In this document: piece by piece, positions 40,064-43,936 of the stretch
How the letters are laid out: each line of letters opens with the position of its first letter
Position numbering within the stretch: the first letter of the stretch is position 1
Assembly: GCF_001456955.1 (NCBI RefSeq)
Contig: NZ_KQ758472.1
Coordinates: forward strand, 194,022 to 258,021
DNA length: 64,000 nucleotides
Source of the DNA: Microbacterium enclense
Lineage (GTDB): Bacteria; Actinomycetota; Actinomycetes; Actinomycetales; Microbacteriaceae
Direction of reading: 5' to 3'
Translations under genes and position numbers: made by a program
The notes under the pieces: model-generated
Seen by the model: only the letters and a program-made list of their open reading frames with translations
Databases searched by the model: none
Told to the model about the DNA's origin: nothing

Positions 40064-41068
40064 ATGCCCGTATCCATCGCAGAAGCGAAGAAGAACGCGA
40101 CCGACGATGTCGACGTGGCGGTGATCGACGAGTTCCGTAAGGAATCGACCGTCATCGACTCGCTGATCTTCGACGACGTCGTGAACCCCGCCGGCGGCGG
40201 CGCGACGCTCACCTACGGCTACCGCCGCCTCGCCACGCAGCGCAGCGCCGGATTCCGTGCGCTGAACACCGAGTACACGCCCGAGCACGTCACCACGACC
40301 CCCGTCACGGTGAATCTCGCGCCCCTCGGTGGCTCGTTCGAGGTCGACCGCGTCATCGCGAAGATCGGCCCCGCCGCGTCCGGCGCCGTCACGCTGAACC
40401 TGCAGCAGACCGTCAAGGCCACCCGCACGAAGTTCCAGGACGCCGTCATCAACGGCGACGTGGCGACCGACGCGAACGGCTTCGACGGTCTCGACAAGGC
40501 CCTCACCGGCTCGTCGACCGAGCTCGGCGTCGGCGCCGTGACCGACTGGTCCGACTTCGACACCAACGCCCGCGCCGAGCACCGCGCGCTCGACAAGATC
40601 GACGAGTTCCTCGCCGCTCTCGACGGCGCGCCGACCATCATCCTCGGCAACGCATCCGCGCTCGCCCGCGTGCGCGCCGCGGCCCGCCGCGCCGGCCAGT
40701 ACACCAAGGACCCCGTCGAGGGCCTCCTCGGGGTCAACGGCCGCCCGATCGAGCGTGAGACGTACGGTGGCGTGCTGTTCGCCGACCCGGGCAACAAGCC
40801 CGGCACGAACAACCCGATCATCCCGATCGCCACGCGCACCGTCGGCGGCTCGTCCGTGACCGGCCTGACCGACCTGTACGCGTACCGTGTCGGCCTCGAC
40901 GGCTTCCACGGCGTGTCCATCGTCGGCGGCCAGCTCGTGCAGACCTGGCTCCCCGACTTCACGTCGGCCGGCGCCGTCAAGAAGGGCGAGGTCGAGCTCG
41001 GCCCGATCGCCGTCGCCCTCAAGGCCACCAAGGCAGCCGCCGTGCTGCGCAACGTGAAGGTGCGGTGA
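40064..41068 (+). CDS. Major capsid protein (HK97 fold)
   Basis: A 334-residue protein. The N-terminal arm MPVSIAEAKKNATDDVDVAV is followed by an E-loop-like region with YGYRRLATQRSAGFRALNTE and TPVTVNLAPLGGSFEVDRVI, then the P-domain helix LNLQQTVKATRTKFQDAVIN and the A-domain PTIILGNASALARVRAAARR. These are traits of HK97-fold capsids. GAGGGAGATGAAAC upstream gives a good RBS. No protease gene is present, so maturation probably needs no cleavage by a phage-coded protease, as in SPP1. Confidence 0.9.
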   Translation: MPVSIAEAKKNATDDVDVAVIDEFRKESTVIDSLIFDDVVNPAGGGATLTYGYRRLATQRSAGFRALNTEYTPEHVTTTPVTVNLAPLGGSFEVDRVIAKIGPAASGAVTLNLQQTVKATRTKFQDAVINGDVATDANGFDGLDKALTGSSTELGVGAVTDWSDFDTNARAEHRALDKIDEFLAALDGAPTIILGNASALARVRAAARRAGQYTKDPVEGLLGVNGRPIERETYGGVLFADPGNKPGTNNPIIPIATRTVGGSSVTGLTDLYAYRVGLDGFHGVSIVGGQLVQTWLPDFTSAGAVKKGEVELGPIAVALKATKAAAVLRNVKVR

Positions 41069-41481
41069 TCGACATGGCGAAGAAGACCATCAAAACGCCC
41101 GTCGAGGGCTTCGACGGCATCGTCGCGGGCGTCCGGTTCGTCGACGGCGTGGGCTCCACGGACGACGAGGGCGCTATCGCGTACTTCGAGCGTCAGGGGT
41201 ACACCGTCGGCGGCCACGTCGACGAGGACGCTGAGCGGGACTTCCCCCTGGGCGACCCGTCCGACAAGTGGACGAAGACGCAGCTCCTCGCGTACGCGAA
41301 GGCGCACGGCATCCAGATCGAAGCCGACGTGAAGACGAAGGACGACATCTGGGCGGCGATCAAGCCCGGCGGCACCCCGTACAAGGGCGTCACCACCCCG
41401 GAGGGTCAGGCGCTCGTCAACGACGCCACCGACCCGAAGGACGGCGAGGTCAAGGACCAGGCGGAACTGCCGGTCAAGTAA
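41065..41481 (+). CDS. Capsid-adjacent protein with Rho-N/HeH-like motif
   Basis: A 138-residue protein from GTG 41065 overlapping the capsid stop (an ATG at 41074 is a possible alternative). WTKTQLLAYAKAHGIQIEAD and VKTKDDIWAAIKPGGTPYKG form a helix-extended-loop-helix of the Rho_N/SAP kind. The gene at 41609-42058 ends with the same structure, so the two look like paralogues. A head-completion or decoration role is likely from position. Confidence 0.7.
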   Translation: MIDMAKKTIKTPVEGFDGIVAGVRFVDGVGSTDDEGAIAYFERQGYTVGGHVDEDAERDFPLGDPSDKWTKTQLLAYAKAHGIQIEADVKTKDDIWAAIKPGGTPYKGVTTPEGQALVNDATDPKDGEVKDQAELPVK

Positions 41482-41489
41482 CCGTCACC

Positions 41490-41528
41490 GCTCCCCGCAC
41501 GGCGCGCACACGCCGTCGTGCGGGGAGC
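41490..41528 (+). terminator. Strong hairpin after the capsid cistrons
   Basis: GCTCCCCGCACG (41490-41501) pairs perfectly with CGTGCGGGGAGC (41517-41528), 12 bp with a 15-nt GC-rich loop that can itself pair. It starts 8 bp after the stop at 41481 and ends 4 bp before the tRNA-like sequence. There is no T-run and essential head genes follow, so mRNA 3'-end protection is as likely as termination. Confidence 0.7.
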
Positions 41529-41532
41529 ACCA

Positions 41533-41593
41533 CGACACGTAGCTCAGATGGAAGAGCCACGGGACGCAGGTTCGAGTCCTGCCGTGTCGACCA
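41533..41593 (+). ncRNA. tRNA-like RNA lacking an anticodon arm
   Basis: This 61-nt sequence folds as a tRNA with one arm missing. Acceptor CGACACG (41533-41539) pairs with CGTGTCG (41583-41589), 7 of 7. After TA comes a D arm, GCTC-AGATGGAA-GAGC. Only 8 nt (CACGGGAC) stand where the 17-nt anticodon arm and variable loop should be. The T arm GCAGG-TTCGAGT-CCTGC is canonical. Discriminator A and an encoded CCA follow, unlike the host tRNA-Thr in this window, which has no encoded CCA. It cannot decode. The intact acceptor-T half is what RNase P and CCA-handling enzymes recognise, so it may be an mRNA processing signal, a small RNA decoy, or the relic of a tRNA. An RBS, GAGGAGG, follows at once. 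Confidence 0.7.
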
Positions 41594-41608
41594 CCCAGAG
41601 GAGGCATC

Positions 41609-42058
41609 ATGCGCATCATCCACCCCCAGGCTGTCGCCGGCCGCCAGAGGCAGTTCGACGTCGAGTTCATCGACGGTGTCGCGACGGTCGAGTCGTTGCA
41701 CCCCGAGCGGGAGCTCGCGTTCCGTCAGCACGGGTTCCGCTTCGAGGAAGACCCCGAGGTCGTCGCCCCGTACCACGGGGGCCTCGGCGAGCCGATCATC
41801 GACCTCACCACCATGACGATCGCGCAGCTGCGCGAGATCGCCGAGATGGACGGTATCGACCTCCCGTCGAAGGCGAAGCACGCGGAGATCGTCGAAATCC
41901 TGTCCCGCCGCCCGATGGACCCCATCCCGGGCAGCGTCGAGAACGGTGACGGGTCGTTCGTCTCCCCCGGCGTTCCCGATTTCGGAAAGGCCGAGCTGCG
42001 CGACGGCATCTGGGCGGCGGTCAAGCCCGGCGAAACGCTGCCGGGTACGGAGGGCTGA
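41609..42058 (+). CDS. Head-module protein with Rho-N/SAP-like C-terminus
   Basis: A 149-residue protein. MTIAQLREIAEMDGIDLPSK is a Rho_N/SAP-like helix pair, and RDGIWAAVKPGETLPG at the end matches IWAAIKPGGTPYKG in the protein at 41065-41481. RBS GAGGAGG lies between the tRNA-like element and ATG 41609. A structural head or joining role is likely from position only. Confidence 0.7.
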   Translation: MRIIHPQAVAGRQRQFDVEFIDGVATVESLHPERELAFRQHGFRFEEDPEVVAPYHGGLGEPIIDLTTMTIAQLREIAEMDGIDLPSKAKHAEIVEILSRRPMDPIPGSVENGDGSFVSPGVPDFGKAELRDGIWAAVKPGETLPGTEG

Positions 42059-43527: not shown

Positions 43528-43936
43528 CGCGCCGGAGATCATCCTGAACCGCGCGCTCGCGCAGCTGCTGCACACCGCGGGCCTCGCGGTCTACCACCAG
43601 CTGCCGGGTGTCATACCGGAGCGAGCGATCCGCCTCGACGGCGTCATGCCGACCAGCGTCAACGAGTACACGCTGCTCACCCCGCTCCGCCCTGTCCCCG
43701 AGGGCCGCGCGGACATGGTCTGGCGCACGCAGATCTACACCCGACGCAAGGGCGGCGCCGCCGCCGCGCGCTCCTGGGGCGCCGACCTCCGCGCCGTGCT
43801 CGACCAGAAGGAGTACGTCCCCAACGTGCTCGGCATCGGCTGGGCGTGGGAGTTCTCCGCCACCGACTTCGACCCCGACTCGCAGGGACGCGCAGCCGTC
43901 GCCTCGACCTACTACTTCCGCGGCCGCCGGCCGTAG
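43520..43936 (+). CDS. Tail terminator protein
   Basis: A 138-residue protein from GTG 43520. It has an alpha/beta pattern with ILNRALAQLLHTAGLAVYHQ, PRRKGGAAAARSWGADLRAV-like helices and a terminal strand VASTYYFRGRRP, typical of siphovirus tail terminators that cap the tail tube. Position immediately before the tail tube gene agrees. Confidence 0.75.
   Translation: MADAPEIILNRALAQLLHTAGLAVYHQLPGVIPERAIRLDGVMPTSVNEYTLLTPLRPVPEGRADMVWRTQIYTRRKGGAAAARSWGADLRAVLDQKEYVPNVLGIGWAWEFSATDFDPDSQGRAAVASTYYFRGRRP

Follow-up and report, generated by a model that had tools for sequence, protein, structure and literature searches.

A prophage head operon in the window, by which we mean the whole 64,000-nucleotide stretch of Microbacterium enclense DNA that was analysed, carries a tRNA-like element that has an acceptor stem, a D arm and a T arm and lacks an anticodon arm. 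This armless form is conserved at the same site in related phages and prophages, and many other phages have elements built in the same way. The element is probably a cis-acting RNase P processing signal that ends the RNA upstream of it and starts the RNA downstream.

The terminase, portal, minor head, major capsid and tape measure genes of the prophage (PHROG) lie on the plus strand. Phage relatives of its 334-residue major capsid protein are annotated as major capsid or major head protein, and the gene order is major capsid gene, 138-aa gene, hairpin, element, 149-aa gene. A reading of the sequence alone had placed the element between the capsid and connector genes; it does not lie directly between them, as the 138-aa and 149-aa genes flank the element, and a connector gene would, by position only, come after the 149-aa gene. 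The two flanking genes have weak PHROG 10541 and 3281 matches in common, and their Pfam matches (Ish1, HeH/Rho_N) fall below the cut-offs. Their proteins also share the motif D-x-I-W-A-A-x-K-P-G, as if duplicated around the element. The features are:

40064-41068, plus strand: major capsid protein gene, 334 aa (PHROG 212 major head protein, E 1.2e-71)
41065-41481, plus strand: 138-aa gene 5' of the element (PHROG 10541, weak Ish1-like match)
41490-41528, plus strand: 12-bp hairpin, extended by inner pairs (fold; hairpins of differing sequence at the same place in relatives)
41533-41539, plus strand: acceptor stem 5' strand, pairing with 41583-41589 (Rfam alignment, covariation)
41542-41557, plus strand: D arm (GCTC/GAGC), loop with GG (Rfam alignment, class conservation)
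41558-41565, plus strand: 8-nt linker replacing the anticodon arm and variable loop (Rfam alignment, class conservation)
41566-41582, plus strand: T arm (GCAGG TTCGAGT CCTGC) (Rfam alignment; pairing rewritten in L263)
41583-41593, plus strand: acceptor 3' strand, discriminator A and encoded CCA (sequence, Rfam alignment)
41609-42058, plus strand: 149-aa gene 3' of the element (sub-cut-off Pfam matches to HeH and Rho_N)

The window cloverleaf consists of 41533-41589 followed by ACCA. When the window was compared with the Rfam tRNA model (RF00005), positions 41533-41590 scored 44.1 bits against a gathering cut-off of 29 (E 4.3e-6 in the 64-kb window), and the alignment comprises a 7-bp acceptor stem, a 4-bp D stem, a 5-bp T stem with GTTCGAGTC and a discriminator A. 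The model's anticodon arm, with its 7-nt loop, is skipped, and 8 nt lie between the D and T stems; the tRNA-like element without an anticodon arm that had been proposed from the sequence is thus confirmed. Decoding is excluded by the anatomy of the window element, which has no anticodon. ARAGORN did not call the element in the window, where the sole tRNA reported was a tRNA-Thr elsewhere and no tmRNA was found. At 57 nt, with a short linker, no tag-coding part and A3-U70 in place of G3-U70, the element falls outside tmRNA as well, and it has the acceptor/T stack, T loop and RCCA-type tail of an RNase P site. Its fold energy is unexceptional (z -1.65 for the element, z -0.64 for 83 nt around it), so the case rests on the tRNA match and on the comparison with relatives.

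The sequence-only reading had also described a hairpin 4 nt upstream of the element and a ribosome-binding site 3 nt past the CCA, and both are present: the hairpin at 41490-41528 folds at -35.5 kcal/mol (z -6.7) with 4 nt between it and the element, and the ribosome-binding site (AGAGGAGG) begins 3 nt past the CCA. The spacer between hairpin and element (41529-41532) reads ACCA, so that cutting at 41532/41533 would give an RNA whose end resembles that of a tRNA acceptor minihelix. Among the relatives, five of nine have one extra base in this spacer, and in L136 it is GCCA.

Capsid relatives were taken from viral contigs (the best 80 of 154) and from genomes (40 loci). The armless form follows the hairpin in ten distinct phages or prophages: L009, which is the window, L012, L013, L015, L024, L032, L095, L136, L260 and L263. 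Full tRNAs with the anticodons CAT, CCT, GTT, CTG and CGT occupy the same site in L010, L011, L020, L059 and L084, and L016 has a CGC tRNA with a shortened anticodon loop. In L017 only acceptor and T arms are found, and the sequence resembles, a few substitutions aside, an L010/L084-type tRNA minus the stretch between two CAG triplets. The site is degenerate in L018 (16.8 bits), bears only a T-arm-like trace in L061 and L090, and in L023 gives way past the hairpin to a different sequence, probably an inserted gene. The hairpin is kept in L019, L021 and L091 without a tRNA-like element, and the element is therefore not indispensable. An additional locus from the window's genus, L262, has an element with the same sequence as that of L095 (Microbacterium sp. 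Se63.02b), after a capsid relative. As tRNAs of varied identity occupy the site, it is the tRNA shape that is often kept, and decoding identity is irrelevant. On this reading, the anticodon arm would have been lost at least twice in the window's family. Full-length tRNAs in relatives had been named beforehand as a sign that the armless form is a one-off deletion; five such tRNAs, and a sixth with a shortened anticodon loop, do exist, but the armless form in ten distinct relatives and many other phages argues against a one-off deletion.

Several other observations were made at or near this site. At L011 5480-5555, after a capsid relative 96% identical to that of the window, there is a tRNA-Arg(CCT) with an A3-C70 mismatch, as if the anticodon arm had been regained or the armless form had arisen more than once. 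Other relatives, at L022 5516-5643 (a Rhodococcus phage REQ3-type locus) and also in L027, L033, L035, L044, L045 and L100, have at a boundary two genes past the capsid gene another structured RNA, conserved and about 125-165 nt long; it has a long closing helix and, by eye, a pseudoknot-like interleaved pairing, and an Rfam search of the L022 RNA gave no credible match. In the Lachnospiraceae relatives L124 (3208-3276) and L126 (about 540-645), weak tRNA-like matches precede the capsid gene by about 730 nt, and L050 has a tRNA-Tyr at a similar place upstream of its capsid gene.

Elements of the same build were sought in viral contigs with the exact pattern GTAGCTCAG-N(3-8)-GAGC-N(3-16)-GGTTCGANTCC, which a standard full-length tRNA fails because of its length and which matched at least 120 stretches. 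Among the matches listed, 101 are distinct (window included), and 75 of these have at least six of seven acceptor pairs. The pattern fixes one of the seven acceptor positions on the 5' strand and none of the seven on the 3' strand; we calculate that, were all bases equally frequent, chance would yield one or two well-paired elements, versus the 75 found. In an alignment of these 75 elements, again among the matches listed, 98.8% of cells are paired and the covariation score is 0.699 versus 0.142 after shuffling, a score that is raised by the shared ancestry of the rows and, in the acceptor stem, by their selection for acceptor pairing; the three outer T-stem pairs were unselected yet covary. 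Double changes occur at 9 of the 16 pairs, and sliding the partners lowers pairing to 39-47%. The compensating changes with constant absence of the arm that the sequence-only reading had looked to for support are accordingly found both in the window's phage family and beyond it. The linker measures 8-13 nt across the class and 6 nt in L095. A second pattern with another D stem matched 32 stretches, including 15 distinct well-paired elements, and hence a second D-stem type exists.

Model R1, our model of the armless class, whose alignment includes the window itself, matches the window with 72.5 bits over 61 nt, a full-length match within the 55-63 nt by which the class is defined. Across 295 genomes of the window's genus, R1 has six top matches of 59-62 nt that score 63.5-72.5 bits; a full-length tRNA comes next with 58.1 bits. 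Four of the six have a capsid relative just upstream; the element of the fifth, L258, has the same sequence as that of viral contig L155, and the sixth is L261. Armless elements with another D stem score 42-67 bits, overlapping full tRNAs (up to 49), so the score alone does not define the class and length is needed too. A BLAST search of the element and its flanks against named phages matched 1068 records, none over more than 80% of the query, and the 40 listed rows span 34% of the query and are parts of tRNA genes. Separately, the isolated Polaribacter phage Danklef_1 (L288 3007-3064) has at positions 43546-43603 of MT732458 an armless element that scores 74.6 bits with R1 and is annotated as tRNA-OTHER, Undet_(NNN).

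The genes next to class elements were called with a rough gene caller of our own that missed some window genes. Where both neighbours were called, both lie on the same strand as the element in 53 of 65 cases, both on the opposite strand in 3 and on mixed strands in 9, and 17 of the 53 same-strand elements are within 100 nt of both neighbours. An ARAGORN tRNA lies at most 3 kb away in 13 of 75 (among the matches listed), and a boundary function is less clear for elements in long non-coding gaps or near tRNAs. Among the 25 best-represented of 50 PHROG families matched by the upstream neighbours (60 ORFs), 12 are named, 10 of them head or virion families; several of these families match the same protein (L152, L248), and thus only a handful of the 60 ORFs is named. 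The 25 listed of 65 families matched by the downstream neighbours (62 ORFs) include endolysin, terminase, tail, protease, endonuclease, exonuclease, transposase and methyltransferase. Most of the neighbouring genes fall in no named family. Individual loci place the element 3' of a portal protein (L181), of a protein 36% identical to Corynebacterium phage major tail proteins (L199) and, in L152 and likewise in its close relative L219, of a different major capsid family (PHROG 267), 4 nt past a strong hairpin. The 334-aa protein upstream of the L146 element looks scaffold-like; it matched no family, and a phage-record protein search with the neighbours of L146 (334 aa) and L180 (342 aa) found nothing.

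A hairpin just upstream, as a general part of the class, was considered and rejected: one of -15 kcal/mol or lower is present in 12 of 75 cases versus 12 of 225 random places, in a count whose script overlooked known hairpins in L172, L223 and L234. The protective 3' hairpin suggested from the sequence is thus retained for the window's family and for L152/L219, and not for the class at large.

Elements also adjoin the large phage RNAs GOLLD and ROOL. In L192 the element begins 3 nt past the GOLLD match, and in L208 the ROOL match shares its 3'-terminal stretch with the first 10 bases of the element, while a full tRNA sits immediately 5' of this ROOL; a full tRNA also lies 8 nt after GOLLD in Streptococcus phage Javan565 (L289). 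GOLLD or ROOL was present in 2 of 24 armless loci scanned with Rfam. Patterns for ROOL 3' ends were either too strict (2 stretches) or, by our own estimate, dominated by chance, and so the link to GOLLD and ROOL rests on single loci. We propose that armless elements at GOLLD and ROOL 3' ends have the same role as those at gene boundaries. Precursors of tRNA and of tmRNA are RNase P substrates. On the minus strand of another viral contig (L291, 5381-5722 and 5745-6324), ROOL is followed 22 nt on by a tmRNA gene, with tRNA genes around them. The available text of three publications places GOLLD and ROOL near tRNAs, or a pseudo-tRNA within GOLLD, and does not name the armless element (PMC7567579, PMC12286853, PMC6582537).

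In the reading we favour, the head-operon transcript would fold here into a tRNA elbow and acceptor stem, and host RNase P would read the acceptor/T stack, the D-T elbow and the CCA-like tail and cut at 41532/41533. The capsid-side RNA would be left, in the window's family, with the stable hairpin plus 4-5 nt at its end, and trimming of the element's 3' side would create a new 5' end for the downstream genes, close ahead of the ribosome-binding site. The anticodon arm would be dispensable for cutting and lost more than once; similarly built elements are found at gene boundaries in many other phages. We infer RNase P as the enzyme, the cut and an effect on expression; cleavage at 41532/41533 fits the observations. 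Points against this reading are the upstream hairpin that is not general, the elements in long gaps or near tRNAs, the small share of same-strand elements close to both neighbours, the mostly unnamed neighbour families, the CCA that is not encoded throughout the class, and the relatives that do without an element.

It is rather unlikely, in our estimation, that the excised 57-nt RNA is itself the product, as a trans-acting tRNA mimic titrating tRNA-binding enzymes. Its targets would be processing or modifying enzymes or defence-system nucleases, and without an anticodon it would be immune to anticodon nucleases; such a role could coexist with cis processing. Much of the D- and T-arm sequence is set by the search pattern, and its conservation is therefore uninformative, but the pattern-free core speaks for a mimic: A21 is present in all 75 elements, and G18 and the last linker base (C33 of the window element, C48-like) in at least 90%, among the matches listed. 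Positions of the A21, G18 and C48 type belong to the tRNA elbow and core. The occurrence of elements at varied gene boundaries, some near tRNA clusters, points the same way. Against a mimic, the boundary in the window's family is occupied by tRNAs of varied identity, by acceptor and T arms only or by the armless form, and the class has no common aminoacylation mark, with G3-U70 in 10 of 75 elements and discriminator A in 36 of 75 (among the matches listed). Alanylation requires the G3-U70 identity pair; a shared charging identity, by alanylation or otherwise, was rejected on these G3-U70 counts and the mixed discriminators. An encoded CCA is not universal in the class: C74, C75 and A76 are found in 49, 24 and 51 of the 75 elements (among the matches listed) and in 92, 70 and 70 of 113 full tRNAs in the same stretches. 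This tail bias fits use by processing enzymes, as would be expected of a cis-acting processing signal, better than aminoacylation. The RNase P-site shape at class level is to be read with the T loop built into the search pattern and a complete RCCA in a minority of elements.

A further alternative, which we regard as quite improbable, is that tRNA genes land at the boundary and that the armless forms are what remains of them on the way to loss. Close relatives do have full tRNAs at the site, L017 resembles an L010/L084-type tRNA that suffered a deletion, and L018 is degenerate; moreover, 26 of the 101 distinct pattern matches (among the matches listed) have fewer than six of seven acceptor pairs and may include decayed copies. 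However, the armless form is conserved beyond the level of synonymous positions. In 36 pairs from nine armless relatives, with L263 left out, median identity was 0.90 for the element (0.85-1.00), 0.64 for fourfold sites of the capsid gene (0.50-0.84) and 0.54 for the flanks, and the element was more alike than the fourfold sites in 36 of 36 pairs, although recent exchange of elements between phages could add to this high identity. The elements of L012 and L136 are identical and both end in ACCC. Changes among the nine relatives are mostly in the D loop and linker or preserve pairs, as in L015, where G1-C72 replaces C1-G72, and two T-stem pairs are rewritten with pairing kept in L263; the data thus suggest that substitutions avoid stems or keep pairs. 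The covariation across phages and the narrow length range (56-63 nt in the 75 elements, among the matches listed, where the pattern permitted 46-64) likewise argue against decay.

That the element is an attachment-site relic, or a place where a phage, satellite or tRNA cassette integrates, is exceedingly improbable: tRNA genes are common integration targets and partial copies are left behind, according to the available text of PMC9897764, but a search of its own genome, in which 5 of 60 first-look candidates were scored, matched nothing other than the element, what is kept is the complete cloverleaf less one arm rather than one side of a tRNA, and acceptor strands differ (61 different 5' strands in 75 elements, among the matches listed), all of which disfavours the relic put forward by the sequence-only reading.

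We found no description of phage anticodon-armless tRNA-like elements in the open-licence papers searched. Canonical phage tRNA genes (RF00005) have the acceptor, D and T arms in common with them, whereas the armless elements have neither an anticodon arm nor a decoding function. In mitochondrial tRNA punctuation, the tRNAs that serve as transcript cutting sites are mostly functional tRNAs; the human mascRNA and menRNA retain a short anticodon-like arm, whereas the phage elements have none; and the phage M3 and C4 RNAs are not known to be tRNA cloverleaves. M3 and C4 RNA are alike in being phage RNAs cut by RNase P, being named as substrates together with tmRNA in the available text of PMC11143913. 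MALAT1 is named as a substrate in that of PMC4919922, in which mascRNA (from MALAT1) and menRNA (from MEN beta) are tRNA-like structures that follow the upstream RNA on its 3' side and that RNase P and RNase Z cut. These two come from animal nuclear long non-coding RNAs, whereas the armless elements lie in phage mRNA or phage RNA. Plant mitochondrial t-elements are tRNA-like cutting sites in longer RNAs as well (PMC4919922, available text), but these and mitochondrial punctuation are organellar, unlike the phage-borne armless elements. The tRNA-like domain of tmRNA is an upper tRNA half without an anticodon and has an RNase P-made 5' end (PMC3985003, available text); it differs in being alanylated and carrying a long insert with a coding part, whereas the phage elements have a short linker, a D stem and no common G3-U70.

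By analogy, the class would work like MALAT1/mascRNA processing and tRNA punctuation, and what is new would be that it is phage-borne and widespread, with a fixed absence of the arm. We tentatively suggest, as a plausible extension held with less confidence than the cis-acting signal in the window, that a large undescribed phage class forms a portable RNase P cut-and-protect module that sets RNA ends, relative levels of virion proteins and the 3' ends of GOLLD and ROOL. The making of tRNA-like RNA ends through RNase P is already known from human nuclear RNAs and from organelles; if the class is widespread in phages, it would add a new layer of phage gene control. It may explain some of the 'undetermined' tRNAs in phage annotation, such as that of Danklef_1, and would suggest how the ends of the GOLLD and ROOL RNA cages arise. 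The question of how one phage operon gives unequal amounts of its proteins becomes testable at defined nucleotides.
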